A DNA stretch of 64,000 nucleotides from Wolfiporia cocos (Eukaryota > Basidiomycota > Agaricomycetes > Polyporales > Phaeolaceae): assembly GCA_029448655.1 (NCBI GenBank), contig JACCLO010000029.1, positions 1 to 64,000 on the forward strand. The letters run 5' to 3'. This document shows, piece after piece, positions 17,401-51,804 of the stretch (positions within the stretch are counted from its first letter, which is position 1; each line of letters starts with the position of its first letter). A program made the position numbers and the translations under genes. The notes beneath the pieces were generated by a model. It did no database searches, had not been told where the DNA came from, and was given only the letters and a program-made list of their open reading frames with translations.

Positions 17401-18270
17401 ATCCTTTCTCCCCTCGTTCTGTTTCATCTAGGTCCTCGACCTCCAAAATGTCGGGGGTTAGGTGTCGTTCGAAAATTATCTGGGCTATTCGCATGCCCGG
17501 GATAATTCTATGTGCTTTGTCTGAATAGTTGAAGACGATGGCTCCGACGTCTCCTCGGTAGTCCGAGTCTATGATTCCGGCCTGTACTACCAGTCCGTGT
17601 CTGAGGGTGTTGCCTGATCGTCCGGCCAACCTTCCATACGATCCCTTCGGGATCTTCATTTTTACTCCTGTGGAGACGAGTTTCCATCCTCCGGCGGGAA
17701 TCTCGGTTTCTTCTGCAGCGTAAAGGTCATACCCTGCGGCTTCTTGGGTTCCCCTTGTCGGAATTTTCCCTTCTGGAGCAACTACCATTTCCACCGTATC
17801 CATTTGGATCGTGGCTTCCGGTTTCTTTTCTTCTGCCCCTAGTATTGATCGTACATCGACTGTTTGGTCCTTCCAGTCGATTGTGGGGTTTTCGTCTTTT
17901 AGCCATCCATACCCTAGAATCATATTCTCTGTTCCGATCGATCCTACCAAGAATCGGACCTTTCGCGTTTTCTGGGTCTTCGGATATCGTAGTAGTATGG
18001 TGGCTTCTCGGTCTATTCGCCCATCTTTGTTTTCTGTTCCGTCAACATTTTTGACGATAATCGGGTTCTTCAAGGGTTGCGTGGGCACCTTGTATTTTTC
18101 TACCACTCTGCTGTGGATCAGGTTTGACATTGCTCCTGAGTCGATTAGTGCATTGCACTTCACGGGTTTTGCCAGCGTCATGATTACCGGAATGAAGAGG
18201 GATCGATTCTTCTCGAACGAGGTAATTACATGCGCTGCTTTCTCGGAGGGTAAGACCGTGGGCTTCCCTC
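14301..18270 (-). pseudogene. pol: Pol: protease, dUTPase, reverse transcriptase, RNase H, integrase, chromodomain
   Basis: Open from the Gag-Pol overlap near 18270. Protease: [12 protein letters not shown] (Asp-Ser-Gly). dUTPase: 17387-17764. [17 protein letters not shown] and YMDDILIF, the catalytic YxDD. RNase H: ETDASQFATGAVL intact. Integrase: H-H-C-C zinc region ending CAICQQMK, then D-D-E in SVDFVTDLP, IISDRGPQF and QTDGQTERMNQ. Chromodomain: EEYEVEAILADRW..FVKWKGY. Breaks: a one-base shift near 16320 between RT and RNase H, an in-frame TGA at 14880-14882 inside integrase (probably CGA to TGA), and a shift in the chromodomain near 14350. Gag frame relative to Pol fits a -1 frameshift around GATTTTGCCTAG. 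The product would replicate the element through RNA; this copy is not functional as read. Confidence 0.93.
17387..17764 (-). other. dUTPase domain inside Pol, between protease and RT
   Basis: All five trimeric-dUTPase motifs are present in order: AAGYDLYAA (1), YGRLAGRSG (2), [14 protein letters not shown] (3, with the catalytic Asp), GMRIAQIIF (4) and RGEKGFGST (5, with the stacking Phe). These are residues about 140-265 counted from the Met at 18181. The enzyme hydrolyses dUTP to dUMP and limits uracil in newly copied DNA. No stop or shift falls within the domain. From memory, dUTPase-bearing Metaviridae have been reported from the basidiomycete Phanerochaete; this copy fits that group. Confidence 0.92.
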
Positions 18271-20132
18271 CTAGGCAAAATCCTGTTCTTCTACGAGCCG
18301 TGCTAGGAGCTCGGGGTTCTTGGCTTTCAGAGCCCTAATTGCTGTGACCGCTCTGTTAGCGGTGACATATTCAGTCTCTTCTTCGGAGACTTCTTCGATG
18401 CGAGCTTCTTGCTCGGCTTCTTCTTCTTCGGTTTTTCGAGTAGTCCGCCTAGGGCGGGCTGGTTTCCTCGGCCTCTTCGGGCAGTCTCGCGACATATGTC
18501 CTGGCTGATGACAGGTGAAGCATTTTCCTTTCTTGATGTGATCGTCCCTTTCCTGGGTGGTCATTCGATCTACATCCATTGCGTTCGGATCTTTCGGTGC
18601 GGTTGTCTGTGGAGCACTAGTGCGTCCGTTATTCTGGTTCGAGGCTTGCCAAGCCTTTTTCTTGACAAACGGTTTGTCCCGTTTCAAGAATATCTTGTAC
18701 GTATTTTCATAGTACGAGGCAGCGGACTGCCATTCATCAATGGTTGCTGGTAGCGGTCGAACACCGATGATGTATCGGGTCGTGTGTTCGGGTAACCCTT
18801 TCTCAAAGAGGGTTATGAGCAACGCGTTTCCGTCCGCGCTGTATCGATCGTACTGGGCCTTTCCGGCCAAGTTGTTGAACTCGGTGATATAATCATCAAT
18901 GTCCTTCCTGTCCTGGGTTACGTCCAGGATTTTCTTCCGCGCCTTCTGTACCTCTTCGATGGCTCCGAAGGCTTTCTGGAAGTCTGCATCAAACTGTGCA
19001 AGACTAGGTGGGAAGAATCGTTTTCGTCATTGAGGGTTTCGTATCAAGACCCGTGATAAGTTTCTGTTTCCATTGGCCGCTTTTCCCCTTGTTCGAAATA
19101 TAAAGAGAGGATAAAGATCACTCTCTGAACGTCATTTTGGAACGACGTTTCATACATCTAAACCAGGATTGCACTGGTTTATGCAGTTCTGCATGTCGAT
19201 CGTTCCCCATCGAATACATCTCGGGGGGTTGATCTTTATCATCGGGGGTCGGTAGTACGGGTTCGGCGCCGGAGGTTGAGGGCTGCGGCGCATTCGGTGT
19301 GGAGGCCCTCCTGGGGTCTTCCCCTCCCGGGTATCCTCCACCAGGTTCCTGGGTTTCCTCCGGGTTCCCTGGTTTCCTCCAGGGTTTCCTCCTCCGGGGT
19401 TCGTGGGGGGTTCCTCCTCCGAGTCTCCAGGAGGGGGGGCATTTCCTCCTCCGAGTCCGAAGTTTCCTCCCAGTCCTCTCTGCCTGTATCTTGCGGAGGT
19501 TCGTCCAAATAGGCCTGAAGGCCATGTTCCTGGGTTTGTCATTCCCATTCCTCCGCTTGGGCTAGTCCAAGCGGATTTCCTCCCGCTACCCATTCCGGGT
19601 GCGTTCTGTGGGGGGTTTCCAAAGAGGTCTGTTCCTCCAGCCATAGGCCCCAATCCCACTCTGCGCAAAAGCAGATATAAATCCTGGAGGGTCCTGTCCT
19701 CCGGTCTGGCTGTTATCTGTTCCTGTAAAGCTTTCCAGGATTTCTCCCATCATCTCCGATGCGCTCAATTCCTGCCATTCCTGTGGCACCGAAGGCTGAT
19801 TCATATTTCCATCGGCATCGGAGGTTCTGTTGATGGTTTCGTCTTCGGTCAATGTCGTCGGTTGACATCGGAGGGATTTCTCCGAATCAGTTTAAATGCT
19901 TCACGCGTTATTTCCCAAGCGGTCAGTTCCTGCGGAGGGGTATACTTGTACCCACTTTCGATGCCCTATCTTCTCTGGGGATGACAACAATTCCTCCGCG
20001 GTTACGGAAGGCTCCAATGGTGTCAGTCCACTCGTATCGGTTGAGTCTGTAGACTCCCTGAATGTCCTCGGGCAAGAGTTCAATCAGTCGTGCTGGGAAT
20101 TCTGGTCCAAATATCATGTGCCCTTGCACCAT
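18271..20132 (-). pseudogene. gag: Gag polyprotein with CCHC zinc knuckle, frame broken
   Basis: A start at 20132 (MVQGHMIFGPEFPARLIELL) lies 20 bases inside the primer site. Protein-like sequence continues in changing frames: an acidic piece at 19586-19852, a Gly/Pro/Arg-rich piece at 19150-19668, then the capsid-like part from about 19020 to 18271 (KILDVTQDRKDIDDYITEFN, GNALLITLFEKGLPEHTTRY). The zinc knuckle CFTCHQPGHMSRDC fits CX2CX4HX4C and precedes a Lys/Arg then Glu-rich tail ending at 18271. The capsid and nucleocapsid part is one open frame; the N-terminal third has at least two indels. It would package element RNA. Confidence 0.85.
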
Positions 20133-27717: not shown

Positions 27718-28107
27718 TGCAAGAGCTGCGGCCGGAAGGACTGCACAAACATGGAGGGGTGATGCAATTGGAGGGTGCCAGCATCCAAGGTGGACAATAA
27801 GGGGGCTCAGAAATCTACTAGCGGCAACCCCCCCACACCTCATGGCAAAGGTCACATGGTCCAGGTCACCACAACAGAGATGTGGATCCCAGATGACAGT
27901 GACAACTCCATGGGCAACTCCACCGCCCATTCATCCGTGCGCATCACGGAGGTAGAGGAACCACTGGCCAGTACACCGGCTCCATCAACAGCCCCAATTG
28001 GTCAGCCACCGAATTGGGGCACTACCATTATCCCATGGCATTCAGTTGCCCAGAAAACTCCTGACCATCCAGCTAGCGAGTCGAATTTTCGCCTTCAGCA
28101 CATGTGA
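27718..28107 (+). pseudogene. gag: Gag C-terminal remnant
   Basis: The frame starts with a Cys-rich piece (CKSCGRKDCTNMEG) cut by an in-frame TGA at 27760. It continues in the same frame from 27763 through a low-complexity Ser/Thr/Pro tail to TGA at 28105-28107. Position just before the protease frame and the Cys motif suggest the nucleocapsid end of Gag. The stop fits a CGA to TGA change. Confidence 0.55.
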
Positions 28108-30039
28108 ATCCTTGCCTATGTGTGCTGTGTACTAGTATAGTTGCCTGTACTGCTGACCTGCTTGTAAAAAATTGTGAAAATTTATATCACTATTACAAGA
28201 ATCATGCATGTGATAAGTCCCGATCTTTCCAGATCTGGGTTGACTTGTGGGTCTATGGTCAGAAAGTGCAAGGCTTGGCTTTAATCGATAGTGGAGCAAC
28301 GTTATCAGTCATCAACTCAGACTTTGTTGACAAACATCGTCTAGTCACCCACGATAAGAAAGACCCTTTTTGGATTCATAATGCAGATGGATCATACAAC
28401 AAAAATGGTCTCATCAATAAGTCAGTTAAAGGATTCATGCAACATGGCGAGCACAAGGAAAAGGTATTCCTTACCATCATGAAAATCCACAACCACGACC
28501 TTATCCTAGGATATGACTGGTTAATTAAACATAACCCCACTATGGACTGGAACTCTGGCAGTCTGGTATATCGATGTGGGTCTGCATGCCCAGAAGCCTC
28601 AGAATCGTCCCCTGATTCGGAAGAAGTTGCACCCGATGACGAAGAGGACAATAATAACATCAGCAACATTTGGGATTCTGCGCTAGACACGATTGGAGAT
28701 GGAAACCCTGATGATCCATTTATCAAGTGGATCGGTACCCTGTCCAATGAGGAATTGGGACTCCTCATGGGAATGGTAGGAGAAATCCACCAGAACAGAC
28801 CAGAAGCTGCAACCGAAAAATGGAAGCAGCTTGTGCCTAAGGAATATTGGGAATTCGGCCCAATGGTATTTTCGCAAAAAGCATCCGAAAGGATGCCAAC
28901 ACGTAAGCCATATGATCATGCCATCAATTTAATCGAAGGCACTCCATTGCCAACACTGGCCAAACCATATTCCCTCTTGCCAAAGGAAGAAAATTCCCTC
29001 CGTGACTGGATCGCTGAAGAAAAGCGAAAAGGCTACATCTGAGATTCAAGCTCCCCTATGGCCAGCCCAGTATTTTTCGTTGCCAAGAAAGATGGAACCT
29101 TGTGCATGGTAATCAATTACAGGAAGCTGAACGAAATAACTGTGGATAACAAGTACCCTATACCCCAGATATCGGACCTTATCAACCAACTCTCAGGTGC
29201 ATCGATCTTTACTAAGATCGACCTGAGATGGGGTTACAACAACGTCCGTATCAAGGAAGGTGATGAATGGAAAACAGCATTCATTACTAAACAGGGGTTG
29301 TACGAAGCCATGGTTATGTATTTCGGTTTCAAGAACGTGCCAGGGACTTTCCAAGCAATGATGAACGACGTCCTAAAGGATTTCATTGCCACCGGAAAAG
29401 TCATAGTCTATCTGGACGACATACTGATCTTTGGCAACGACTTAGCGGAACACCGCAAAATCACCAAGGCAGTCCTGAAAAGGCTGCGGGACAATGATCT
29501 ATATGCCAAACCCGAGAAATGCTTCTTTGAAAAAAGTAGCATCGACTATTTGGGTATGATAATTTCTAAGGGCAGAGTCGAAATGGACCCCTCGAAACTA
29601 TCAGGAGTATTAGATTGGCTGACCCCAACCAAGGTGAAGGAAGTTCAAGCCTTTTTAGGCTTTGCGAACTTCTATCGGCGGTTTATTCAGGACTTCTTGA
29701 AAATTGTGAAACCCCTGACAACACTCATGAAGAAGTCGGAGAAATGGCATTGGGATGAAGCACAGGAAGAAGCTTTCCAAAAGCTCAAGGCGGCCTTTAC
29801 AACTGCCCCCATCTTACATATTCCGGACAAAATTCAGAAATTCCGTATAGAAGCCAACACATCAGACTTTGCGACTGGAGCAGTCCTAACGCAATGGTCA
29901 CCAGATAGTTGGAAATGGAATCCTTGCGCCTTCTATTCCACAGGCATGACTGCCCCGGAACGGAACTACAAAATTTATGACAAAGAGATGCTAGCCATAA
30001 TTCGAGCATTAGAAGAATGGCAACATTATCTCGAAGGTC
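28104..30039 (+). pseudogene. pol: Pol first part: protease, reverse transcriptase, start of RNase H
   Basis: Protease motif GLALIDSGATLSVINSDF, then an acidic linker and the RT N-terminus ending GYI at an in-frame TGA (29040-29042). The same frame continues with SSSPMASPVFFVAKKDG, RT motifs [20 protein letters not shown] and YLDDILIF (YxDD), and the conserved [12 protein letters not shown]. The RNase H start reads EANTSDFATGAVL, where the family has a catalytic Asp at the Asn. The codons AAC and ACA there are what CpG to CpA changes in GAC and GCA would give. The frame is cut at 30040 by the composite element. The ATG at 28104 is probably not the true start. Inactive as read. Confidence 0.9.
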
Positions 30040-30044
30040 ACCCG

Positions 30045-31138
30045 TGACACAGATGGCTCTGTGGGACTCACCAAGCCAGTATCCTGCGATGAACTAGGCG
30101 ACTTAGGTGAGGAAGAGGTTATCAGACGCAGTAGGAGGTAGGAGGTTCTTCTACGGCGTACGCCGAGAAGAATAGAACTGAAGTTAAAGAGCGCTTGGCT
30201 CCTACTTATATACATTGTGTCGGGAGGGCACGTGCTACTAGCTAGCGGTTGCCTTACCGGGTTATGTGGCTTTGCCAAGTGGCGAAGCTTTATCTTATCT
30301 GATGTTTAGTTACTCTATCTAGAATGGCCGTGGAAGGCCCTAATGGCCGACCCAATCGTAATAGAGGGATTATGTCTTATCTGTGATACTAACGCGGGCG
30401 CAGCCCGGGTATAGGTGAAGCCGGTTGCCGGATACCTTGCGGCATAATGGCGATTGGCCGTGCTTCGTTGGATGACCAAGGCGAGACGCCGAGGTCGTTA
30501 TGCCATTGGACGGGTAGTACCGTGGCATGTGTTACAGCCCGGTCCGGATGGTTACCGGGGCATGTATTGGTCTTAGCCGTGAGGCGAGGACCGGTGTTTG
30601 GGCAGCGCCGTGATGGCAGAAGCCCGGGACTTGGAGAACGCCGAGTCCGTGAGATGGCCGAGAAGGCCGAGCCTATAGCGATATTGCCTTGATGCTAATA
30701 TAGTGCTATTTGGCCGTGTTGCCATTATTATGCGAAGGCGTGGCGCGCCTGAGGTGCCATTGTGATCAAGGATCTTATGGCGGTGGGAAGCCGGGAAGGC
30801 CGACCCAATAGTACAAGGCCGCGAGGCACTGTTTGTACATGTGGACATTATTATGCGAGCGTGCCGCGCTCGGCCTATCATTATGATCTACGATCTATGA
30901 CGTGGCTGGTCTTGCTCTGACGGGCGAGACCTTTATGACGTAGCTGTAACTATGCTATTGGACCGGAAGGTGCCGTAGCGTTATGTATGCTGGTCATGTG
31001 GTGATAAGCCCAGTTAAGAGCTTGTCGTGGTGGCAATGGGAGTTAACCCGTAGATAACTTGTAGTTAGACGTATAAATCCCAGGTAAATTGCTATAATCG
31101 TAGGAAAAATGCTGTAAGCCCCAGATAAATCTGTGACA
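30045..31138 (-). repeat. LTR 1 of the composite element (3' terminal in sense)
   Basis: 1094 bp, apparently identical to LTR 4. In sense: TGTCACAGATTTATCTGG, TATATAAGTAGG, CAGTTCTATTCTTCTCGG and an end at CATCTGTGTCA. The open frame at 30447-30692 recurs only in sister LTRs and is not credible as a gene. Confidence 0.93.
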
Positions 31139-31153
31139 TTACCCCCGCTTTAG

Positions 31154-31175
31154 GTTTCATCGTCCCTGATGAAAC
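31154..31175 (-). other. PPT-proximal stem-loop of the composite element
   Basis: GTTTCATC, loop GTCCCT, GATGAAAC: an 8-bp perfect stem, sense loop AGGGAC, 15 nt from the LTR next to the tract AAAGCGGGGGTAA (sense). Confidence 0.75.
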
Positions 31176-31206
31176 TATTCCTCATTGTGTACGTCCCAAG
31201 AGCGGT

Positions 31207-31241
31207 ATAACGCGTGATGACGAAGTGTCAAATGCCGTTAT
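31207..31241. other. Hairpin module H1, copy a
   Basis: Outer stem ATAACG/CGTTAT, internal loop CGTGA versus AATGC, inner stem TGAC/GTCA, loop GAAGT. Confidence 0.75.
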
Positions 31242-31342
31242 GGTGCTGCTTCAATTTGTCAATTGAACAGGGATAAATGGGAGTTTCAGGACTTGTGGTG
31301 GAACCTGAGCGTGGAAGGCGATTTTATTCCTTATAGTGATTT

Positions 31343-31377
31343 GTAACGCGTGATAGCGAAGTGCTAAATGCCGTTAC
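31343..31377. other. Hairpin module H1, copy b
   Basis: Outer stem GTAACG/CGTTAC, the same internal loop CGTGA/AATGC, inner stem TAGC/GCTA, loop GAAGT. Both stems differ from copy a at paired positions. Confidence 0.78.
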
Positions 31378-31387
31378 TAGCGATTAT

Positions 31388-31421
31388 CAACGCGTGATGA
31401 CCGAAAGGTCAAATGCCGTTG
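31388..31421. other. Hairpin module H1, copy c
   Basis: Outer stem CAACG/CGTTG, internal loop CGTGA/AATGC, inner stem TGACC/GGTCA, loop GAAA. Confidence 0.78.
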
Positions 31422-31479
31422 TTAGGGAGATGTAGTCGTGTTACTAGAGTGTGCTGTCATTGTGCATGCGGATCCTAAG

Positions 31480-31538
31480 AGGAGGGACTCTCCTGTTATC
31501 GCTGAAGGTGTTCTAGTGCCTTTTCGCGACCTTGGTCG
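31480..31538. other. Hairpin module H2, copy A (three hairpins)
   Basis: AGGAG-GGACT-CTCCT, then AAGG with loop TGTTCTAGTG and CCTT, then CGAC-CTTG-GTCG. The counterpart in internal domain 3 (41286-41302) has a 6-bp first stem, AGGAAG-GGACT-CTTCCT. Confidence 0.78.
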
Positions 31539-31712
31539 GATTATTGCTTTTGCTTATGACGTTACTCGTAGTAGAAGGCGATATGGAAATGGTCATCATA
31601 TAGTGCCTTTGAATCTACTTGTAATCTGTATCTCCAATAGCTTGCCAAGCGTATTAGAGGGTGCATTGTGTCGTTGTACGTATTTCGGATAGCATTGTGC
31701 GATATTCCTTAG

Positions 31713-31770
31713 AGTGAGGGCTTCACTGTTAGCTCTGGAGATTTTCTAGTGTCTCTTCGAGCCCTTGGGC
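31713..31770. other. Hairpin module H2, copy B (three hairpins)
   Basis: AGTGA-GGGCT-TCACT, then GAGA with loop TTTTCTAGTG and TCTC, then GCC-CTTG-GGC. Loops match copy A; stems do not. Confidence 0.78.
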
Positions 31771-33026
31771 GGATATGTTGCTTATGCGTAGTACCCATTG
31801 AGTGTGACATAGCGGTGCTTTTTCGACGTCTATTGCCTAGCGGTGAATGGGATTGCAAGTTCCTTCGTTCGCGTGGCGGGTGTCTTAGGCTTTGTGCTTG
31901 TACAGGGGTAATCCTACTTTGTACGACTTATGCGGTTTGAACGGTTATTAAAGGGCGTCGCCTTATGAACGTTTATGAGGCGTCGCCTCCCTAGTATCGC
32001 AAGTACTAAGCGTGTGACATTTGTCAATGCCCATTTGTTACAGGGGTTGTGTCCCCTAGTTAGATTGCTTCTACGTAGCGATCTCTTCGGAGTCGTAAGT
32101 TCCGGAATGAAGCTGTGCCTTCGTTGTTGTATGCACTTATTTATTAACGAGTAGGCTTCTCGTGTAAAACCCCATAGTATAAGTACTAATCATTGTGCAT
32201 TATGGTCAATGCTTATGATTGTATTCCCTGATACTGTAGTGTCGTTGCCGTAGTGAGGCCTTATTGGGTAACCGTGAGAACATACATCCTTGTCAGGAGT
32301 TGTCTCGTATAGGTGTATCCCGTAAGGGCTGAAGTCCCATGGTGGCGATGACGGTAGTTTCCAATGTGCTTGTATGTCGTTAAAGTCGTTCTTCGATTGA
32401 GTATGACATTGTAAGCGTGGGAACTGGGATGATCGTTGGGGAAGGGTATATTTCGCTATTGGATAGATAGCTACTATATTCCTATTACAGGGTTGTCGTC
32501 CATATACGAATAGGACAGTACGAGCATGAATGAGGGTAATCGGGCCTCTTAGTGCATGTCGTTTGTTGCTTTAATGACCGTAAGGTTCATTTGTAAGCGT
32601 GGGATAGTGGACTTGTTAAGGTCCTAGGTGCGAAATTAGGGTTTCCACCCCCTCTTTCACGTTTGATCTCCCGATCAAACCTATCCAGATGGTTTTGGTT
32701 TTTAAAGAGGTTAAACCGCCTCTATACCCAGATAAGGGTGGGTGGATGTGGGCCGAAGGTATTCTTGACGTATATCCATATACGGCTGTATCCAGTGTAG
32801 TCGCTCGCATATGCGACCAGATTTTTATACTAAGGTTTCCAAGCCCTAGTTTGTCGGAATCGAAGGGTTTTCCAGGCCCATATTCGATGTAGTGACGAGA
32901 TGTAATCCTTTCTTGACGTAAGGATACAGATCCGGATTTATTTATTACGCGTCTCGACGGCGTAGGTTTCCGTAAACCAAGCAATTAAATGATAACCGAT
33001 TGCCAAATCGGCTTGATTGAATTAAT

Positions 33027-33069
33027 AAGGGGGACTCCCTTGTTATCTCTGGAAGTTTTCGAGTGCTTC
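33027..33069. other. Hairpin module H2, copy C (two clear hairpins)
   Basis: AAGGG-GGACT-CCCTT, then GAAG with loop TTTTCGAGTG and CTTC. The third hairpin is degenerate here. Confidence 0.75.
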
Positions 33070-34990
33070 TTCGAGACCTTTTGCGGACGATCGCATTGAG
33101 TTGCTAAGGTGTATTTTTCGAATTCGGTTATTCTCCCCACAGAGAAAAGTTGAATCGAAGTGAAATCAAAAGTGAGGTAGCTAGCCTCGTGACGAATTTT
33201 GCGATTGGCGTGCGAAATTGTCGACTTCAATACAGGGGGGGACCGGTTGGAAACCGGTGTAGATTCGGCGATTGTGCGAGAATGCCGAATGAAGTGTGAT
33301 TCTAGAAGCCTTGCGGCCTCCGCTACACTTCAAGGGAACGCGTATTAATAGCGTGTGTCCCTTGTTTTCCTTTCCTCTAACCCAGATTGCAAGATTCAAT
33401 GAAGTAATCTTGTTGCGATCTGTTTGTACATGGGTGGCTGGTGGAAACAGCGCTGTACCCAATTATTTATAGACGCTTGTCAGACGTCTCTTCCCAATCG
33501 GATGGTAATTTCCTTGTCAGGAATTCCATTACCAAAAGGGGTGCCCCCGTTCTAAGGTTCTTTGTGACATGTGACCAAATGACAGATGCTCAATAACCCG
33601 AATCCCCTTTTCAGGAGCGAAGACCGAAGTCAAACGGGCGCCGATAGATTAAGAATCTTAATCGACTTGGTACTTAGGCATTCCCATAGTAATAATAGTT
33701 ATAAGCATATGTTTGCCAAGCGTACGCGATCCTACGTCGAGTAAGGTACTAGTATCGTTTTTCGATTGACTTATTGTACCTAAGACGTAAAAGGTTGCTT
33801 TATATGTACATAAGCGACCTTAACCAGGCTAGATAACCTGGGAACCAGCAGGTGACGCAGGATTTCCAGAGGCGAATACAAATGCTATTGGACGGTTTCT
33901 AAGCTACTTTACAAAGTAAGTAAGCTACTAGGAGCCGCCACTAAAACTACATATTTATCTACTTATTGACTGGGATACCAGGGTACCTGAAAGAGAGCTC
34001 ATCATCAGCGATCAACGCTGAGTGGTCATGTCTAACACAAGAAGAACGGGGGCATGGTTAGGGGCGCCCTTGTCAGGACGCCGCGCGGAATTTAGCCGAC
34101 AGGTGTCTTCATCGAAGCGCGCGACTTCCTTCTAGAAAGAGAGTCGGTGACTGCCAGCGCTTGATAAGCTGGGTCACATGGTTGGGAATAGGATACACAG
34201 CCCATTTCCTCGTGGAGATGAGCTGGAAAGTGGTCGCAGTATTACACCGCGACCGGTCCGCGCTTTAGTGGTAAGGCTTGCCATCTATAGCCACCTGGGT
34301 GTCACATCAGGGCTAAAAAACCATCCGTCGATCTAAGATCGCGCATTCACGAGCGCTCCACACATCAAGGATGGTGGGCAACGCCGCATGCTTCCGGTGG
34401 GGCCCCAACTCGGTTTAACCCAGGCTCGCACACCGAGCTGCCCGTAGGACTTACGCTATTGGCTACCGCGAGTGACCTCGGCTGGTTTGGCCTTGCGAGC
34501 CGCACCACCTCACCACTTGGATTCCCCGAAGGAGATCCCAAGCGGGCCCCTTACGCCTGGGGGGCGGCTTTGGAAGATTCCCACACCCAACTAAGGGAAT
34601 ACGCCGAAGCGCATATCCCTATGGGGATCCTACTGGTAGTGTTGGGTCCCTGAACAGGGATTGCCAAGACAGGGGGCTGCGCGCACACAGGCAGACGGTC
34701 CCCTTTTCCCAATAGGCGGGTCTCAACCGCTGGCACCAGCAACCTTGTCAGGAAGCCGGCGCCTCTCCTTAACCCTGGAGTCCGGGTTCGCAGGACGCAT
34801 GCTGCTGATTAGGCAAGCAGCGCCCCACTGGGTGGCAGCAGGCCGCTAAGCCCGCCGCCGATGTATCCCAATCCGCAACCACGGAGCATACATCCCCTTT
34901 GCAGGAGAGTAGCGGCCCCTGCGCTATCTCAGACACCTGTTGGAGGAAAAACCCAGGCGCCACCAGTTAAGGAGGCGCAGGGGGGTAGGT

Positions 34991-35002
34991 AGTTCTATTC
35001 TT
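34991..35002 (-). promoter_or_regulatory. Internal primer-binding site of the composite element, self-priming type
   Basis: AGTTCTATTCTT (plus), one base from the LTR. Its reverse complement AAGAATAGAACT lies in every LTR of the unit (30168-30179, 35127-35138) just after the sense TATA. The same arrangement stands at the junctions 39969/39970 and 44831/44832. Confidence 0.75.
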
Positions 35003-35003
35003 A

Positions 35004-36124
35004 TGACACAGATGGCTCTGTGGGACTCACCAAGCCAGTATCCTGCGATGAACTAGGCGACTTAGGTGAGGAAGAGGTTATCAGACGCAGTAGGAGGTAG
35101 GAGGTTCTTCTACGGCGTACGCCGAGAAGAATAGAACTGAAGTTAAAGAGCGCTTGGCTCCTACTTATATACATGTGTACGGGAAGGTCCACGTGCTACT
35201 AGATAGCTATGTCCTTACCGGGTTATGTGGCTTTGCCCAAGTGGCGAAGCTTTATCTTATCTGATGATTTTTATTACTCTATCTAGAATGGCCCTGTGGA
35301 AGGCCCTAATGGCCGACCCCAATCGGTAATAGAGGGATTATGTCTTTGATTGTGATGGCTAACGCAGGGCAGCAGGCCCGGGTATAGTGTGAGGCCGGTT
35401 GCCGGATACCTTGCGGTATAAATGGCGATTGGCGTAGCCTTCGTTGGATGACCAAGGCGAGGTCGGCCGAGGTCCGTTATGTCTATTGGGCCAGGCAGGC
35501 ACCGTAGCATGTGATATGTCCGGACCGGAGGTTACCGGAACATATGTTTGGTCTTAGCCGTGAGGCGAGGGACCGGTGTTTGGGCAACGCCGTGATGGCA
35601 GAAGCCCGGGACTTGGAGAACGCCGAGTCCGTGGGAGGCCGAGGAAGGCCGTAGCCTATAGCGATATTGCCTTGGTGCTAATATAGTGCTATTTGGCCGT
35701 GTTGCCATTATTATGCGAAGGCGTGGCGCGCCTGAGGTGCCATTGTGATCAAGGATCTTATGGCGGTGGGAAGCCGGGAAGGCCGACCCAATAGTACAAG
35801 GCCGCGAGGCACTGTTTGTACATGTGGACATTATTATGCGAGCGTGCCGCGCTCGGCCTATCATTATGATCTAGGATCTATGACGTGGCTGGTCTTGCTC
35901 TGACGGGCGAGACCTGTATGACGTAGCTGTACTAGTTGCTATTGGACCTGGTAAGGTGCCGTAGCGTTATGTAAGCTGGTCATGTGGTTGACGAGCCCAG
36001 TTAAGAGCTTGTCGTGGTGGCAATGGGAGTTAACCCGTAGATAACTTGTAGGTAGACGTATAAATCCCAGGTAAATTGCTATAATCTAGGAAAAATGCTG
36101 TAAGCCTCAGATAAATCTGTGACA
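35004..36124 (-). repeat. LTR 2 of the composite element (internal)
   Basis: 1121 bp; same ends and layout as LTR 1 but with many small insertions and substitutions. Confidence 0.92.
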
Positions 36125-39100
36125 TTACCCCCGCTTTAGGTTTCATCGTCCCTGATGAAAACTATTCCTCATTATGTACGTCCCAAGAGCGGTATAACGC
36201 GTGATGACGAAGTGTCAAATGCCGTTATGGTGCTGCTTCAATTTGTTAATTGAACAGGGATAAATGGGAGTTTCAGGACTTGGATGGAGCCTGAGCGTGG
36301 AAGGCGATTTTGTTCCTTATGTGATTTGTAACGCGTGATAGCGAAGTGCTAAATGCCGTTACTAGCGATTATCAACGCGTGATGACCGAAAGGTCAAATG
36401 CCGTTGTTAGGGAGATGTAGTCGTGTTACTAGAGTGTATTGTCATTATGCACGCGGATCCTAGAAGGAGGGCTCTCCTGTTATCGCTGAAGGTGTTCTAG
36501 TGCCTTTTCGCGACCTTTGTCGGATTGTTGCTTTGGCTTATGACGTTACTCGTAGTAGAAGGCGATATGGAAAGGGTCATCATATAGTGCCTTTGAGTCT
36601 ACTTGTAATCTGTATCTCCAATAGCTTGCCAAGCGTATTAGAGGGTGCATTGTGTCGTTGTACGTGTTTCGGATAGCATTGTGCGATATTCCTTAGAGTG
36701 AGGGCTTCACTGTTAGCTCTGGAGATTTCTAGTGTCTCTTCGAGCCCTTGGTCGGATATGTTGCTTATGCGTAGTACCCATTGAGTGTGACATAGCGGTG
36801 CTTTTTCGACGTCTATTGCCTAGCGGTGAATGGGATTGCAAGTTCCTTCGTTCGCGTGGCGGGTGTCTTAGGCTTTGTGCTTGTACAGGGGTAATCCTAC
36901 TTTGTACGACTTATGCGGTTTGAAGGTTATTAAAGGGCGTCGCCTTATGAACGTTTATGAGGCGTCGCCTCCCTAGTATCGCAAGTACTAAGCGTGTGAC
37001 ATTTGTCAATGCCCATTTGTTACAGGGGTTGTGTCCCCTAGTTAGATTGCTTCTACGTAGCGATCTCTTCGGAGTCGTAAGTTCCGGAATAAGCTGTGCC
37101 TTCGTTGTTGTATGCACTTATTTATTAACGAGTAGGCTTCTCGTGTAAAACCCCATAGTATAAGTACTAATCATTGTGCATTATGGTCAATGCTTATGAT
37201 GTATTCCTGATACTGTAGTGTCGTTGCCGTAGTGAGGCCTTATTGGGTAACCGTGAGAACATACATCCTTGTCAGGAGTTGTCTCGTATAGGTGTATCCC
37301 GTAAGGGCTGAAGTCCCATGGTGGCGATGACGTAGTTTCCAATGTTGTATGTCGTTAAAGTCGTTCTTCGATTGAGTATGACATTGTAAGCGTGGGAACT
37401 GGGATGATCGTTGGGAAGGGTATATTTCGCTATTGGATAGATAGCTACTATATTCCTATTACAGGGTTGTCGTCCATATACGAATAGGACAGTACGAGCA
37501 TGAATGAGGGTAATCGGGCCTCTTAGTGCATGTCGTTTGTTGCTTTAATGACCGTAAGGTTCATTTGTAGCGTGGGATAGTGGACTTGTTAAGGTCCTAG
37601 GTGCGAAATTAGGGTTTTCCACCCCCTCTTTCACGTTTGATCTCCCATCAAACCTATCCAGATGGTTTTGGTTTTTAAAGAGGTTAAACCGCCTCTATAC
37701 CAGATAAGGGTGGGTGATGTGGGCCGAAGGTATTCTTGACGTATATCCATATACGGCTGTATCCAGTGTAGTCGCTCGCATATGCGACCAGATTTTTATA
37801 CTAAGGTTTCCAAGCCCTAGTTTGTCGGAATCAAAGGGTTTTCCAGGCCCATATTCGATGTAGTGACGAGATGTAATCCTTCTTGACGTAAGGATACAGA
37901 TCCGGATTTATTTATTACGCGTCTCGACGGCGTAGGTTTCCGTAAACCAAGCAATTAAATGATAACCGATTGCCAAATCGGCTTGATTGAATTAATAAGG
38001 GGGACTCCCTTGTTATCTCTGGAAGTTTTCGAGTGCTTCTTCGAGACCTTTTGCGGACGATCGCATTGAGTTGCTAGGTGTATTTTCGAATTCGGTTATT
38101 CTCCCCACAGAGAAAAGTTGAATCGAAGTGAAATCAAAAGTGAGTAGCTAGCCTCGTGACGAATTTTGCGATTGGCGTGCGAAATTGTCGACTTCAATAC
38201 AGGGGGGACCGGTTGGAAACCGGTGTAGATTCGGCGATTGTGCGAGAATGCCGAATGAAGTGTGATTCTAGAAGCCTTGCGGCCTCCGCTACACTTCAAG
38301 GGAACGCGTATTAATAGCGTGTGTCCCTTGTTTTCCTTTCCTCTAACCCAGATTGCAAGATTCAATGAAGTAATCTTGTTGCGATCTGTTTGTACATGGG
38401 TGGCTGGTGGAAACAGCGCTGTACCCAATTATTTATAGACGCTTGTCAGACGTCTCTTCCCAATCGGATGGTAATTTCCTTGTCAGGAATTCCATTACCA
38501 AAAGGGGTGCCCCCGTTCTAAGGTTCTTTGTGACATGTGACCAAATGACAGATGCTCAATAACCCGAATCCCCTTTTCAGGAGCGAAGACCGAAGTCAAA
38601 CGGGCGCCGATAGATTAAGAATCTTAATCGACTTGGTACTTAGGCATTCCCATAGTAATAATAGTTATAAGCATATGTTTGCCAAGCGTACGCGATCCTA
38701 CGTCGAGTAAGGTACTAGTATCGTTTTTCGATTGACTTATTGTACCTAAGACGTAAAAGGTTGCTTTATATGTACATAAGCGACCTTAACCAGGCTAGAT
38801 AACCTGGGAACCAGCAGGTGACGCAGGATTTCCAGAGGCGAATACAAATGCTATTGGACGGTTTCTAAGCTACTTTACAAAGTAAGTAAGCTACTAGGAG
38901 CCGCCACTAAAACTACATATTTATCTACTTATTGACTGGGATACCAGGGTACCTGAAAGAGAGCTCATCATCAGCGATCAACGCTGAGTGGTCATGTCTA
39001 ACACAAGAAGAACGGGGGCATGGTTAGGGGCGCCCTTGTCAGGACGCCGCGCGGAATTTAGCCGACAGGTGTCTTCATCGAAGCGCGCGACTTCCTTCTA

Positions 39101-39969
39101 GAAAGAGAGTCGGTGACTGCCAGCGCTTGATAAGCTGGGTCACATGGTTGGGAATAGGATACACAGCCCATTTCCTCGTGGAGATGAGCTGGAAAGTGGT
39201 CGCAGTATTACACCGCGACCGGTCCGCGCTTTAGTGGTAAGGCTTGCCATCTATAGCCACCTGGGTGTCACATCAGGGCTAAAAAACCATCCGTCGATCT
39301 AAGATCGCGCATTCACGAGCGCTCCACACATCAAGGATGGTGGGCAACGCCGCATGCTTCCGGTGGGGCCCCAACTCGGTTTAACCCAGGCTCGCACACC
39401 GAGCTGCCCGTAGGACTTACGCTATTGGCTACCGCGAGTGACCTCGGCTGGTTTGGCCTTGCGAGCCGCACCACCTCACCACTTGGATTCCCCGAAGGAG
39501 ATCCCAAGCGGGCCCCTTACGCCTGGGGGGCGGCTTTGGAAGATTCCCACACCCAACTAAGGGAATACGCCGAAGCGCATATCCCTATGGGGATCCTACT
39601 GGTAGTGTTGGGTCCCTGAACAGGGATTGCCAAGACAGGGGGCTGCGCGCACACAGGCAGACGGTCCCCTTTTCCCAATAGGCGGGTCTCAACCGCTGGC
39701 ACCAGCAACCTTGTCAGGAAGCCGGCGCCTCTCCTTAACCCTGGAGTCCGGGTTCGCAGGACGCATGCTGCTGATTAGGCAAGCAGCGCCCCACTGGGTG
39801 GCAGCAGGCCGCTAAGCCCGCCGCCGATGTATCCCAATCCGCAACCACGGAGCATACATCCCCTTTGCAGGAGAGTAGCGGCCCCTGCGCTATCTCAGAC
39901 ACCTGTTGGAGGAAAAACCCAGGCGCCACCAGTTAAGGAGGCGCAGGGGGGTAGGTAGTTCTATTCTTA
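36125..39969 (-). other. Internal domain 2
   Basis: 3845 bp, colinear with domain 1. It differs mostly by single-base gaps, many in short runs, in its first half; the final 1.4 kb has the same length as in the other two domains (1439 bp from TGACATGTG to the LTR). Non-coding. Confidence 0.85.
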
Positions 39970-40934
39970 TGACACAGATGGCTCTGTGGGACTCACCAAG
40001 CCAGTATCCTGCGATGAACTAGGCGACTTAGGTGAGGAAGAGGTTATCAGACGCAGTAGGAGGTAGGAGGTTCTTCTACGGCGTACGCCGAGAAGAATAG
40101 AACTGAAGTTAAAGAGCGCTTGGCTCCTACTTATATACATTGTGTCGGGAGGGCACGTGCTACTAGCTAGCGGTTGCCTTACCGGGTTATGTGGCTTTGC
40201 CAAGTGGCGAAGCTTTATCTTATCTGATGTTTAGTTACTCTATCTAGAATGGCCGTGGAAGGCCCTAATGGCCGACCCAATCGTAATAGAGGGATTATGT
40301 CTTATCTGTGATACTAACGCGGGCGCAGCCCGGGTATAGGTGAAGCCGGTTGCCGGATACCTTGCGGCATAATGGCGATTGGCCGTGCTTCGTTGGATGA
40401 CCAAGGCGAGACGCCGAGGTCGTTATGCCATTGGACGGGTAGTACCGTGGCATGTGTTACAGCCCGGTCCGGATGGTTACCGGGGCATGTATTGGTCTTA
40501 GCCGTGAGGCGAGGACCGGTGTTTGGGCAGCGCCGTGATGGCAGAAGCCCGGGACTTGGAGAACGCCGACCGAGTCCGTGGGAAAGCCGAGGAAGGCCGC
40601 CCAAGTAGGACAAGGCCGCGAGGCACTGTTTGTACATGTGGACATTATTATGCGAGCGTGCCGCGCTCGGCCTATCATTATGATCTATGATCTATGACTG
40701 TGGCTGGTCTTGCTCTGACGGGCGAGACCTGTATGACGTATGCTGTGGTGTTGCTATTGGACCGGAAGGTGCCGTAGCGTTACGTAAGCTGGTCATGTGG
40801 TTGATAAGCCAGTTAAGAGCTTGTCGTGGTGGCAATGGGAGTTAACCCGTAGATAACTTGTAGTAGACGTATAAATCCCAGGTAAATTGCTATAATCATA
40901 GGAAAATGCTGTAAGCCCCAGTAAATCTGTGACA
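39970..40934 (-). repeat. LTR 3 of the composite element (internal, with a deletion)
   Basis: 965 bp. It lacks roughly 130 bp present in the other LTRs around 40570-40615 (the segment with GCCTATAGCGATATTGCC) but keeps both ends, TATA and transcript start. Confidence 0.9.
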
Positions 40935-43900
40935 TATACCCCCGCTTTAGGTTTCATCGTCCCTGATGGAAACTATTCATTCATTATGTAAGTCCCAGAG
41001 CGGTGAGACGCGTGATGACGAAGTGTCAAATACCGTTAGCGTTGCTGCTTCAATTTGTCAAGTTGTATGCAGGGATAAGATGGAGTTTCAGGACTTTGTA
41101 GTGGAAGCCTGAGCGTTGGGATAGGCGATTTTATTCCTTATGTGATTTGTAACGCGTGATAGCGAAGTGCTAAATGCCGTTACTAGCGATTATCAACGCG
41201 TGATGACCGAAAGGTCAAATGCCGTTGTTAGGGAGGAGTAGTCTTGTTACTAGAGTGTATTGTCATTGTGCACGCGGATCCTAAGAGGAAGGGACTCTTC
41301 CTGTTATCGCTGAAGGTGTTCTAGTGCCTTTTCGCGACCTTGGTCGGATTGTTGCTTTTGCTTATGACGTTACTCGTAGTAGAAGGCGATATGGAAATGT
41401 TCATCATATAGTGCCTTTGAGTCTACTTGTAATCTGTATCTCCAATAGCTTTGCCAAGCGTATTAGAGGGTGCATTAGTGTCGTTGTACGTATTTCGGAT
41501 AAGCATTGTGCGGATATTCCTGTAGAGTGAGGGGCTTCCTGTTAAGCTCTGGAGATTATTCTAGTGTCTCTTCGAGTCCCTTGGGCGGTTATGGTGGCTT
41601 ATGCGTAGTACCCGTTGAATGTGAACATAGCGGTGCTTTTCGACGTCCTATTGCTGTATATCGGTGAATGGATTAGCATGTTCCTTCATTCGCATAGGCG
41701 GGTGTCTTAGGCTTTGTGCTTGTACAGGGGTAATCCTACCTTTGTACGACTTATGCGGTTGAACGGTTATTAAAGGACGTCGCCTTTATACGTTATGAGG
41801 CGTCGCCTCCCTAGTATCGCAAGTACTAAGCGTGAGACATTTGTCAATGCCCATTTGTTACAGGGGTTGTGTCCCCTAGTTAGATTGCTTTCAATGTAGC
41901 GATCTCTTCGGAGTCGTAAGTTCCGGAATGAAGCTGTGCCTTCGTGGTTGTATGCAGCTATTGTATTAACGAGTAGGCTTCTCGTGTAATAAACCCCATA
42001 GTAAGGTACTAATCATTGTGCATTATGGTCAATGCTTATGATTGTATTCCCTAGACTGTAGTGTCGTTGCCGTAGTGAGGCCTTATTGGGTAACCGTGAG
42101 AACATACATCCTTAGTCAGGAGTTGTCTCGTATAGGTAATATCCCGTAAGGGCTGAAGTCACGTGGTGGCGATGACGGTAGTTTCCAATGTGCTTGTATG
42201 TTCGTTAAAGTCGTTCTTCGATTGAAGTATGGACAATTGTAAGCGTGGGAACTGGGATGATCGTTGGGGAAGGGTATATTTCGCTATTGGATAGATAGCT
42301 ACTATATTCCTATTACAAGGTTGTCGTCCGTATACGAATAGGACAGTACGAGCATGAATGAGGGTAATCAGGCCTCTTAGTGCATGTCGTTTGTTGCTTT
42401 AATGACCGTAAGGTTCATTTGTAAGCGTGGGATAGTGGACTTGTTAAGGTCCTAGGTGCGAAATTAGGGTTTCCACCCCCTCTTTCACGTTTGATCTCCC
42501 GATCAAACCTATCCAGATGGTTTTGGTTTTTAAAGAGGTTAAACCGCCTCTATACCCAGATAAGGGTGGGTGGATGTGGGCCGAAGGTATTCTTGACGTA
42601 TATCCATATACGGCTGTATCCAGTGTAGTCGCTCGCATATGCGACCAGATTTTTATACTAAGGTTTCCAAGCCCTAGTTTGTCGGAATCGAAGGGTTTTC
42701 CAGGCCCATATTCGATGTAGTGACGAGATGTAATCCTTTCTTGACGTAAGGATACAGATCCGGATTTATTTATTACGCGTCTCGACGGCGTAGGTTTCCG
42801 TAAACCAAGCAATTAAATGATAACCGATTGCCAAATCGGCTTGATTGAATTAATAAGGGGGACTCCCTTGTTATCTCTGGAAGTTTTCGAGTGCTTCTTC
42901 GAGACCTTTTGCGGACGATCGCATTGAGTTGCTAAGGTGTATTTTTCGAATTCGGTTATTCTCCCCACAGAGAAAAGTTGAATCGAAGTGAAATCAAAAG
43001 TGAGGTAGCTAGCCTCGTGACGAATTTTGCGATTGGCGTGCGAAATTGTCGACTTCAATACAGGGGGGGACCGGTTGGAAACCGGTGTAGATTCGGCGAT
43101 TGTGCGAGAATGCCGAATGAAGTGTGATTCTAGAAGCCTTGCGGCCTCCGCTACACTTCAAGGGAACGCGTATTAATAGCGTGTGTCCCTTGTTTTCCTT
43201 TCCTCTAACCCAGATTGCAAGATTCAATGAAGTAATCTTGTTGCGATCTGTTTGTACATGGGTGGCTGGTGGAAACAGCGCTGTACCCAATTATTTATAG
43301 ACGCTTGTCAGACGTCTCTTCCCAATCGGATGGTAATTTCCTTGTCAGGAATTCCATTACCAAAAGGGGTGCCCCCGTTCTAAGGTTCTTTGTGACATGT
43401 GACCAAATGACAGATGCTCAATAACCCGAATCCCCTTTTCAGGAGCGAAGACCGAAGTCAAACGGGCGCCGATAGATTAAGAATCTTAATCGACTTGGTA
43501 CTTAGGCATTCCCATAGTAATAATAGTTATAAGCATATGTTTGCCAAGCGTACGCGATCCTACGTCGAGTAAGGTACTAGTATCGTTTTTCGATTGACTT
43601 ATTGTACCTAAGACGTAAAAGGTTGCTTTATATGTACATAAGCGACCTTAACCAGGCTAGATAACCTGGGAACCAGCAGGTGACGCAGGATTTCCAGAGG
43701 CGAATACAAATGCTATTGGACGGTTTCTAAGCTACTTTACAAAGTAAGTAAGCTACTAGGAGCCGCCACTAAAACTACATATTTATCTACTTATTGACTG
43801 GGATACCAGGGTACCTGAAAGAGAGCTCATCATCAGCGATCAACGCTGAGTGGTCATGTCTAACACAAGAAGAACGGGGGCATGGTTAGGGGCGCCCTTG

Positions 43901-44831
43901 TCAGGACGCCGCGCGGAATTTAGCCGACAGGTGTCTTCATCGAAGCGCGCGACTTCCTTCTAGAAAGAGAGTCGGTGACTGCCAGCGCTTGATAAGCTGG
44001 GTCACATGGTTGGGAATAGGATACACAGCCCATTTCCTCGTGGAGATGAGCTGGAAAGTGGTCGCAGTATTACACCGCGACCGGTCCGCGCTTTAGTGGT
44101 AAGGCTTGCCATCTATAGCCACCTGGGTGTCACATCAGGGCTAAAAAACCATCCGTCGATCTAAGATCGCGCATTCACGAGCGCTCCACACATCAAGGAT
44201 GGTGGGCAACGCCGCATGCTTCCGGTGGGGCCCCAACTCGGTTTAACCCAGGCTCGCACACCGAGCTGCCCGTAGGACTTACGCTATTGGCTACCGCGAG
44301 TGACCTCGGCTGGTTTGGCCTTGCGAGCCGCACCACCTCACCACTTGGATTCCCCGAAGGAGATCCCAAGCGGGCCCCTTACGCCTGGGGGGCGGCTTTG
44401 GAAGATTCCCACACCCAACTAAGGGAATACGCCGAAGCGCATATCCCTATGGGGATCCTACTGGTAGTGTTGGGTCCCTGAACAGGGATTGCCAAGACAG
44501 GGGGCTGCGCGCACACAGGCAGACGGTCCCCTTTTCCCAATAGGCGGGTCTCAACCGCTGGCACCAGCAACCTTGTCAGGAAGCCGGCGCCTCTCCTTAA
44601 CCCTGGAGTCCGGGTTCGCAGGACGCATGCTGCTGATTAGGCAAGCAGCGCCCCACTGGGTGGCAGCAGGCCGCTAAGCCCGCCGCCGATGTATCCCAAT
44701 CCGCAACCACGGAGCATACATCCCCTTTGCAGGAGAGTAGCGGCCCCTGCGCTATCTCAGACACCTGTTGGAGGAAAAACCCAGGCGCCACCAGTTAAGG
44801 AGGCGCAGGGGGGTAGGTAGTTCTATTCTTA
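40935..44831 (-). other. Internal domain 3
   Basis: 3897 bp. The first 1.4 kb (to about 42300) is the most diverged of the three, with many short insertions. Beyond about 42430 it appears nearly identical to domain 1. H1 copies b and c and H2 copy A are retained; H1 copy a has a weakened outer stem. Non-coding. Confidence 0.85.
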
Positions 44832-45925
44832 TGACACAGATGGCTCTGTGGGACTCACCAAGCCAGTATCCTGCGATGAACTAGGCGACTTAGGTGAGGA
44901 AGAGGTTATCAGACGCAGTAGGAGGTAGGAGGTTCTTCTACGGCGTACGCCGAGAAGAATAGAACTGAAGTTAAAGAGCGCTTGGCTCCTACTTATATAC
45001 ATTGTGTCGGGAGGGCACGTGCTACTAGCTAGCGGTTGCCTTACCGGGTTATGTGGCTTTGCCAAGTGGCGAAGCTTTATCTTATCTGATGTTTAGTTAC
45101 TCTATCTAGAATGGCCGTGGAAGGCCCTAATGGCCGACCCAATCGTAATAGAGGGATTATGTCTTATCTGTGATACTAACGCGGGCGCAGCCCGGGTATA
45201 GGTGAAGCCGGTTGCCGGATACCTTGCGGCATAATGGCGATTGGCCGTGCTTCGTTGGATGACCAAGGCGAGACGCCGAGGTCGTTATGCCATTGGACGG
45301 GTAGTACCGTGGCATGTGTTACAGCCCGGTCCGGATGGTTACCGGGGCATGTATTGGTCTTAGCCGTGAGGCGAGGACCGGTGTTTGGGCAGCGCCGTGA
45401 TGGCAGAAGCCCGGGACTTGGAGAACGCCGAGTCCGTGAGATGGCCGAGAAGGCCGAGCCTATAGCGATATTGCCTTGATGCTAATATAGTGCTATTTGG
45501 CCGTGTTGCCATTATTATGCGAAGGCGTGGCGCGCCTGAGGTGCCATTGTGATCAAGGATCTTATGGCGGTGGGAAGCCGGGAAGGCCGACCCAATAGTA
45601 CAAGGCCGCGAGGCACTGTTTGTACATGTGGACATTATTATGCGAGCGTGCCGCGCTCGGCCTATCATTATGATCTACGATCTATGACGTGGCTGGTCTT
45701 GCTCTGACGGGCGAGACCTTTATGACGTAGCTGTAACTATGCTATTGGACCGGAAGGTGCCGTAGCGTTATGTATGCTGGTCATGTGGTGATAAGCCCAG
45801 TTAAGAGCTTGTCGTGGTGGCAATGGGAGTTAACCCGTAGATAACTTGTAGTTAGACGTATAAATCCCAGGTAAATTGCTATAATCGTAGGAAAAATGCT
45901 GTAAGCCCCAGATAAATCTGTGACA
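44832..45925 (-). repeat. LTR 4 of the composite element (5' terminal in sense)
   Basis: 1094 bp, apparently identical to LTR 1. In sense orientation this LTR would drive transcription through the whole array. Confidence 0.93.
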
Positions 45926-46013: not shown

Positions 46014-46933
46014 TGACACAGATCTAACTGTGGGACTCACCGCCTAATCCACAAGGTGAGGGGAATAAGCAGGCAAGCAGTCAGAAGGCGCGCAGAAGAG
46101 AGGTGAAGTTCTTCTAGGGCGCGCAGCGCCTAGAAGAACAGAACTAACGACTAAAGGCGTTAAGCCCTATCTTATATACATGCTTATACTTGATTACGTA
46201 AGTAAGGGAATGGTCCTACCCTAAACGTGTTAGTCATATGCTTGCATAAGGCGATGGTGTCAGTATGGCACCATCCGTATATCATAATGATGCGATAAGG
46301 CATCATGCATAGGTATCTATAGTGACCATGCTAGCCAGTAATGGACTTAGCCAGTAAGATACGAGGGATGGATCAGAAGATCCGCATACATGGTTACCGG
46401 GCCGGAGGCCTGGATCATAATGACGTCATGATTGGAAATGATGATGTCATGGAATGTACTAGACCATGGGTCTGGAATAGTGGATGGCATTATTTTTGTG
46501 TAATTATGGTGTGTGCTATGGATTGGACTGGGCTGAGGGCCTGAGCCAATGGTGTCCTTATTGGTAATGTGATGATGATGGAGTTACATCCATAGTGATG
46601 TCATAGTCTAGGTTGGAACCGGAGGCCAGACCATATGACGTCATGATGATATCAGAAGGATATCATGTGAGGGCGTAGACAAGACCCATAGGGTCTAAGT
46701 CTTTATGACAGAGGTTGGATTGGTAATGGGAACATGTCATGCTTTGATGACTAGCACGTAAGCGCTGTGTCATGTTGCTTAGTAGCGTGTAAGCATCCTT
46801 GGACTTAGGTAATAACTGTTAGGTTACACCGGCATGTTGGCTTGTACTGATAAGGTACAGGATAACTCGTAGGTATGCGTAATAATACCGGATAAATGGC
46901 AATTAATAGCGGAAAAATGTCAGATCTGTGACA
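46014..46933 (-). mobile_element. Solo LTR in the plus-strand gypsy Pol
   Basis: 920 bp, TGACACAGATCT to GATCTGTGACA, flanked by AGATG (46009-46013 and 46934-46938). Same family as the LTR at 49700-50567 in opposite orientation. Confidence 0.93.
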
Positions 46934-46938
46934 AGATG

Positions 46939-49162: not shown

Positions 49163-49341
49163 TACACCTACATGTACAATCAACAATACTTGAAGGACAC
49201 AGCTCGTGGTGACAAGGCTTTGGTCATACTGTAGACACTTGGGAGAAGTCAAATACTCCCTCATGACTATGAGGTTGGGACCGCCTGATGAGCCCTCAGC
49301 GAGCAAGTGGCAAGATGTCGAACCACCGATCACCGAGTACC

Positions 49342-49373
49342 TTTGCAGGACCGCAAATCTTGAAGAGGGGTAA
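49342..49373 (+). promoter_or_regulatory. Stem-loop and polypurine tract of the plus-strand gypsy element
   Basis: TTTGC (49342-49346), loop AGGACC, GCAAA (49353-49357), then TCTTGAAGAGGGGTAA directly before the 3' LTR. The purine run primes plus-strand DNA. Confidence 0.75.
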
Positions 49374-51670: not shown

Positions 51671-51804
51671 AGCTCCTTGTAATCCTTAGTGACCTTGTTG
51701 TCTAGCAATGCTTTACAAATCTCTCGGAGTATCGGTTCATCCAATTCTGGCACCACATGGGAGGTATCAAGATCCATTGCCATGAACTCTCGCTCGAAAA
51801 ATTC
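51671..51804 (-). pseudogene. Ty3/gypsy Pol fragment
   Basis: The minus strand encodes FFEREFMAMDLDTSHVVPEL and REICKALLDNKVTKDYKEL, closely parallel to the segment before the integrase zinc region of the plus-strand element. It is bounded by LTRs on both sides: a scrap of a second, related element. Confidence 0.75.

Follow-up and report, generated by a model that had tools for sequence, protein, structure and literature searches.

How LTR elements that encode no proteins enter the particles of another element is the question addressed here. It is raised by a stretch of 64,000 nucleotides (the window) at the start of a 150-kb contig (C22) in a 64.4-Mb genome. An initial annotation of the window had noticed a hairpin module that recurs in the non-coding internal domain of a retroelement with compensatory base changes, and had read this as the signature of selection on structure.

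Anatomy and setting of the non-coding element

The element interrupts the coding region of a Ty3/gypsy element, of which open frames at 28104-30047 and 46928-48613 lie on either side. The insertion contains four LTRs and three internal domains, the ACCCG target duplication flanks both of its ends, and the repeat unit (LTR plus internal domain) measures 4.96 kb. The features are as follows.

30045..45925, minus strand (inferred): LTR-internal-LTR-internal-LTR-internal-LTR insertion in the Ty3/gypsy coding region, target duplication ACCCG
30045..31138, minus strand: LTR 1, sense TGTCACAGATTT...ATCTGTGTCA
35004-36124, 39970-40934 and 44832-45925, minus strand: LTRs 2, 3 (deletion-bearing) and 4
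30168..30179, minus strand: inferred R start, sense AGTTCTATTCTT, 12 nt able to pair with the primer-binding site
from 30212, minus strand: TATA box TATATAAG, its start preceding the inferred R start by 33 bases
34991..35002, minus strand: primer-binding site, putatively self-priming, sense AAGAATAGAACT, separated from the LTR by one base
31139..31177, minus strand: polypurine tract, sense AAAGCGGGGGTAA, with the adjoining hairpin GTTTCATC/GATGAAAC, similar to one in a coding chromovirus

Judging from this anatomy, the RNA of the element (sense) very likely corresponds to the minus strand of the window, that is, to the complement of the strand first read, mainly because of the TATA box, the self-priming site and the polypurine tract. 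Stop-to-stop frames reach at most 126 aa in internal domain 1, and frames at a dispersed locus, L054, at most 117 aa. The element has two LTRs with TG...CA ends and the target duplication ACCCG, exceeds 4 kb without gag or pol (4.96 kb; judged by frame lengths), and its internal domain has a conserved RNA secondary structure as computed here. On these tested features it is a protein-less LTR retroelement of the LARD kind, and it was filed as a LARD variant.

The window and C22:76994-150238 form part of a giant, retroelement-rich tandem segmental array that is present in dozens of contigs. Distances between flank copies within one contig gave array units of about 67-78 kb, and unit size differs by about 4.96 kb, which equals the tandem element. 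A 2.4-kb flank was found in at least 40 copies at about 100% (scored among 1052 candidates), and the module region had 40 perfect matches in the genome, spread over 32 contigs. Since at least 24 of these 32 contigs also carry the array flank, the 40 matches are very probably array copies and not independent insertions.

Internal domains 1-3 differ in their first 2.2 kb or so, with patchy small differences and indels, and are identical over about the last 1.7 kb. In a comparison of both array units present in the contig, indel-dominated stretches stand beside kilobases without any difference, which looks like uneven consensus quality; substitution-dominated differences elsewhere, as at 14000-18500, look like genuine divergence. 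The differences at 49000-62000 from the other array unit are mainly small indels adjoining long difference-free stretches, and are likely to be consensus errors, while 35000-36100 and 40578-42300 show substitutions and indels mixed, again adjoining long difference-free stretches. A related, palindrome-rich solo LTR was observed at 46015-46934 (target duplication AGATG by eye; 91% identical to the array version), and several of its palindromes lengthen or shorten on both arms jointly relative to the array version, for example GACCCATAGGGTC and GACCATAGGTC.

Fold and covariation of the repeated module

Three copies of the module were located in each internal domain, those of domains 2 and 3 by profile model search.

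31476..31541, minus strand: module A, hairpin AGGAG/CTCCT and hairpin TCGC-AAGG/CCTT-GCGA (plus-strand letters)
31709..31774, minus strand: module B, hairpin AGTGA/TCACT and hairpin GCTC-GAGA/TCTC-GAGC (plus-strand letters)
33023..33088, minus strand: module C, hairpin AAGGG/CCCTT and hairpin TCTC-GAAG/CTTC-GAGA (plus-strand letters)
36461-36525, 36693-36757 and 37993-38058, minus strand: modules A, B and C of domain 2
41282-41349, 41522-41590 and 42851-42916, minus strand: modules A, B and C of domain 3, with A and B within an unreliable patch

The copies of domain 1 aligned over 66 columns with zero gaps, and all three copies that had been described, with their stems and loops, were found in the sequence. 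The module folds into a 5-bp hairpin (hairpin 1) and a second hairpin of 4+4 bp (hairpin 2). As written on the window strand, the five pairs of hairpin 1 enclose GGACT or GGGCT, and hairpin 2 has four outer pairs, an internal loop TG/TTC, four inner pairs and a 10-base loop TKTTCKAGTG; in sense, hairpin 2 thus presents an A-rich 10-base loop and a GAA/CA internal loop. The inner stem of hairpin 2 had been recognized before, and its outer 4-bp helix (TCGC/GCGA, GCTC/GAGC and TCTC/GAGA) had been missed. The third hairpin proposed at that time, CGAC-CTTG-GTCG or GCC-CTTG-GGC, competes with this outer helix and was abandoned: in the larger set described below, only 56.3% of its 112 cells were paired and one of its four pairs was double-changed.

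Pairing is complete in the three paralogues of domain 1 (39 of 39 cells), and 9 of the 13 pairs have changed on both sides. None of 500 shuffles equalled the observed pairing, and no covarying pairs were left when the partner was slid by 1-3 columns. A scan of the 4.96-kb unit for hairpin pairs gave scores of 13-26 for pairs of module copies, compared with best scores of 7-10 in four 5-kb control segments elsewhere in the window, and of 6-8 in three shuffles.

All counts exclude the six modules of domains 2 and 3 on account of consensus quality. The lengthened first stem reported for domain 3, AGGAAG/CTTCCT at 41286-41302, is indeed present, but it lies in a patch of scattered differences and indels where consensus errors are possible; by reading, the first stem of domain 3 copy B is broken in the same patch. 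In domain 2, copy A has a shortened loop. Copies C of both domains reached the same model score as copy C of domain 1. The model also matched weakly at 55458 (16.6 bits), where the stems are broken; this match is probably due to chance. Searches for further module families with patterns that barred the known stems gave 6 matches compared with 11 and 12 in the control, and another pattern gave none.

Dispersed copies were sought with a pattern of LTR end plus primer site from which the array was barred, and 21 places were obtained (control, 0). Twelve of the 14 places examined carry modules; the other two, L055 and L057, are without a full module. L057 is a shorter relative in which hairpin 1 is kept with a different stem, AGAGG/CCTCT (a weak match, 14.6 bits). 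Together with the array copy, these gave 13 element copies with 38 modules, 28 of them distinct; there are 38 and not 39 since one A module lies beyond the sequence piece examined. The persistence of covariation in such a larger alignment had been set beforehand as a test, and it was borne out: over the 28 distinct modules, 361 of 364 distinct pair cells were standard, 11 of the 13 pairs were double-changed and 87 double-change cells were counted. Shuffling this set does not take out relatedness, and several near-identical copies bring the 38 modules down to 28 distinct ones; the significance of covariation was judged by sliding and all-pairs controls. Sliding the partner left 0-3 double-changed pairs. 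In the all-pairs test, 13 of 2211 column pairs were at least 90% Watson-Crick with a double change, and 11 of these 13 are structural.

The same holds at single copies. All three helices of copy C at locus L061 have been replaced, and its loops and flanks are near those of the other copies. The element at L054 has identical LTRs (933/933) and intact modules, and its internal domain shares 85% identity with domain 1; the stems are thus kept in a young copy, which had been the other part of the test. A pattern of the unpaired bases only, with the common array version barred, gave 49 places on 20 contigs (control, 0), of which 15 are, by coordinates, modules already in the large set; 384 of the 392 cells of the two helices at these places were Watson-Crick and 8 were not. 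Across A, B and C (32 modules), 23 of 26 paired columns were variable compared with 14 of 35 unpaired columns. Within A copies alone, stems vary less than unpaired bases (3 of 26 compared with 9 of 35 columns); within B and within C they vary more, in C largely owing to one copy. Covariation and intact stems thus lend good support to the earlier claim of selection on structure in a protein-less retroelement.

Structure appears to extend over the internal domain as a whole and is clearest in the modules. In six long copies (91-96% identical), 27 double-changed pairs were counted in sense, compared with 3-8 in eight column shuffles. Twelve of 53 hairpins detected in individual element copies show a double change, and the majority of changes outside the modules are uncompensated, as judged from 110 changes of single or other type compared with 27 cells of double change. 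Compensated hairpins include GTTTCATC/GATGAAAC, which became GTTTCACC/GGTGAAAC, as well as TACGC/GCGTA to TGCGC/GCGCA and TTCAATT/AATTGAA to TACACTT/AAGTGTA. Near the 3' end of domain 1, a second hairpin family has covarying stems.

31205..31424, minus strand: second repeated hairpin family, copies from 31205, 31341 and 31383

Three of its 11 pairs covary, and support for it is modest since 18 of 500 shuffles equalled that. Fold z-scores of the internal domain were mildly below those of most flanks, with both strands alike, and perfect hairpins in the internal domains were about twofold over shuffled sequence, with a similar excess elsewhere in the window, for example in a minus-strand Ty3 element. 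Neither the window nor C22:64001-94000 contains an Rfam family at gathering score, and at E up to 1 over 30045-36124 the single match was the bacterial groES element (E 0.61).

Several other hairpins were observed. At 30720-30910, two LTR repeats ATTATTATGCGA have stems AGGCG/CGCCT and GAGCG/CGCTC enclosing TGGCG and TGCCG (scan score 4-6, within controls), and hairpins at 31250, 32287 and 33510 share a common TGTC loop on differing stems (scores 4-7, within the control range). Hairpins with a TTAC or TTAT loop and perfect stems of 7-10 bp, all different, gave 17 matches in 77 kb compared with 1 in one shuffle. Eight were selected, at 51472, 52958, 53952, 56987, 57625, 58138 (plus strand), 23243 (plus strand) and 56688 (minus strand). 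Three of these hairpins follow TATATA or TATAAA; by eye, two more follow a TATA-like word and several lie in LTRs. They are possibly a structured RNA 5' end.

The folding strand and the origin of the paired changes

RNAalifold on the sense alignment, with no structure supplied, returned all 13 pairs and, closing the outer helix, an invariant G-U. Folded singly, 33 of 38 modules recovered the full set of pairs in sense, compared with 21 of 38 in antisense; the antisense modules reached a lower mean energy in other folds (-18.1 vs -12.7 for sense). Wobble cells give no strand preference, either in the 38 modules (2 U-G vs 3 A-C and 2 C-C on the sense strand) or in the 49-place set (4 G-T, 2 A-C and 2 G-G on the window strand). 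For the whole domain, RNAalifold of the six long copies gave the lower energy for the plus strand (-978 vs -817; shuffles were made on the sense strand only), maybe because of composition, as the plus strand is G- and T-rich at 30001-34000.

These data make it probable, in our judgement, that the module is an RNA structure under selection in this element. Hairpins acting as DNA, either as a cruciform or as folded single-stranded cDNA that serves for instance as a recombination or protein-binding site, would account for pairs that are almost all Watson-Crick, with G-U and A-C cells both rare, and the tandem units that share LTRs do suggest recombination. The sense strand, however, adopts the fold more often, and the invariant G-U extends the sense helix. 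A cruciform would have to form from stems of 4-5 bp, which is short. The conservation of unpaired bases across A, B and C, together with the more frequent correct folding of the sense strand, makes a DNA cruciform less likely than RNA structure; we hold the DNA reading as a whole to be quite unlikely. G-U pairs are scarcer here than expected for RNA, which could reflect concerted change at the DNA level.

One such process is template switching between hairpin arms during DNA or cDNA synthesis, which rewrites both arms and as a pure mutation bias would need no selection on RNA. The stems frequently change block-wise with few intermediates, and a mechanism of this type that retains the loop is described in the available portion of PMC8794818. 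Template switching nevertheless leaves unexplained the likeness of loops, internal loops and spacing between A, B and C (variable columns 23/26 paired vs 14/35 unpaired), and as the entire explanation we find it unlikely; it may be the source of the double changes alongside selection. With its scarce G-U intermediates, the module lends itself well to studying, in a natural setting, how the two arms of a hairpin come to change jointly. A pattern generated by assembly or sequencing, from array copies and polishing errors, might be suspected from the 100% genome matches, which are very probably array copies, and from the patches of differences and indels in domains 2 and 3. It is contradicted by the 12 dispersed copies with compensated changes, and errors would break stems, making an artefact highly improbable.

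As an RNA structure under selection, the module would act in cis in the genomic RNA of the non-coding LTR (LARD-type) retroelement, and its two-hairpin unit, with kept loops on drifting stems, would on the simplest reading be a protein-binding site present three times per RNA. Its most likely role, which we put forward tentatively, would be to boost the capture of parasite RNA into helper particles, on top of a shared leader; the next candidate, also no better than possible, would be binding of a host factor that acts in export or stability. A broader proposal, speculative and on the unlikely side, is that the 3' 3 kb constitute a mobile structured non-coding RNA with protein-docking modules, freely drifting stems and chromovirus-type LTRs and leader, which competes for helper particles or for a host factor.

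A possible helper and relation to known elements

A coding chromovirus with LTRs 98.6% identical to each other is located at C22:130106-140102. Its 683-aa Gag-like frame has a CCHC motif by reading, with no Pfam match in the first 387 residues, and its 1528-aa Pol frame matches protease, RT, RNase H, integrase, chromodomain and dUTPase. The non-coding element resembles it at both ends of the internal domain.

34140..34788, minus strand: leader region, matching the chromovirus untranslated leader at C22:131018-131626 with 72.8% identity and an equal offset

In sense, nt 216-864 of the internal domain align with nt 213-821 of the chromovirus leader at 73%, and long invariant blocks run across the three leaders compared. 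The hairpins on the polypurine side are similar as well (31139-31177 and C22:139360-139402), with the loop AGGGAC conserved in both. The module is absent from the chromovirus at the sensitivity of profile model R1. A kissing interaction between the hairpin-1 loop and a leader loop was considered and rejected, as hairpin-1 loops vary between copies and the leader loop is constant in the three leaders compared.

The non-coding element would probably be mobilised by a chromovirus, and from its sequence the one in C22 is a possible helper or, since the primer sites of the two elements differ, perhaps a cousin of the actual one. The shared leader is a natural candidate for helper recognition, again from sequence likeness. 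The possible helper shares the 5' leader and not the modules; packaging through the modules, or their recognition by the Gag of another element as suggested in the initial annotation, would be a proposal. Packaging signals are conserved in structure only and hence hard to identify, and few helper pairs have been proposed, according to the accessible part of PMC4558846. Since a compact module, triplicated and strongly covarying, occurs together with a shared leader and a possible helper, the question of RNA entry is experimentally tractable.

For Postia, the available text of PMC2864245 reports dUTPase in basidiomycete Ty3 elements, either as the last part of Pol or between protease and RT. The dUTPase positions in the elements here fit that report as far as it could be consulted, and it is on these elements that the genome is called fungal. 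By eye, the translation of a minus-strand Ty3 element at 13276-18870 has a dUTPase-like stretch between protease and RT.

The 12 nt of its primer-binding site could pair with the start of the RNA as placed after the TATA box, so that the non-coding element may be self-priming like chromoviruses of, presumably, the Tf1/sushi type. It differs from these in having no proteins, and its coding relative in C22 has another primer-site sequence. Self-priming is described in the part of PMC2864245 at hand. Like a retrozyme (PMC4918200, in its available portion), it is a non-autonomous retrotransposon with a probably functional RNA; Rfam gave no ribozyme family, hammerhead included, in the window, nor at E up to 1 in 30045-36124. 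The tandem LTR-internal-LTR-internal layout is shared with the Cassandra TRIM, as far as this is covered by the accessible text of PMC7215508. Cassandra LTRs, however, hold 5S rRNA sequence, whereas none was detected by Rfam at gathering score in the window, and the element here is far larger.

In titles and abstract openings, with most subscription papers outside the scope of the search, no such fungal element was encountered. LARDs and TRIMs are LTR elements without gag, pol and env that specify well-conserved RNA structures (PMC7215508, available part), and the definition of LARDs used here follows the portion of PMC4558846 at our disposal. The closest likeness in these sources, as far as available, is to the LARDs of plants, with which the present element shares LTRs, a length of more than 4 kb, a non-coding internal domain and conserved RNA structure. 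It differs from them in its fungal-type genome, in the apparent self-priming layout of a chromovirus, in the triplicated two-hairpin module with its kept loops and in a leader that points to a possible helper.
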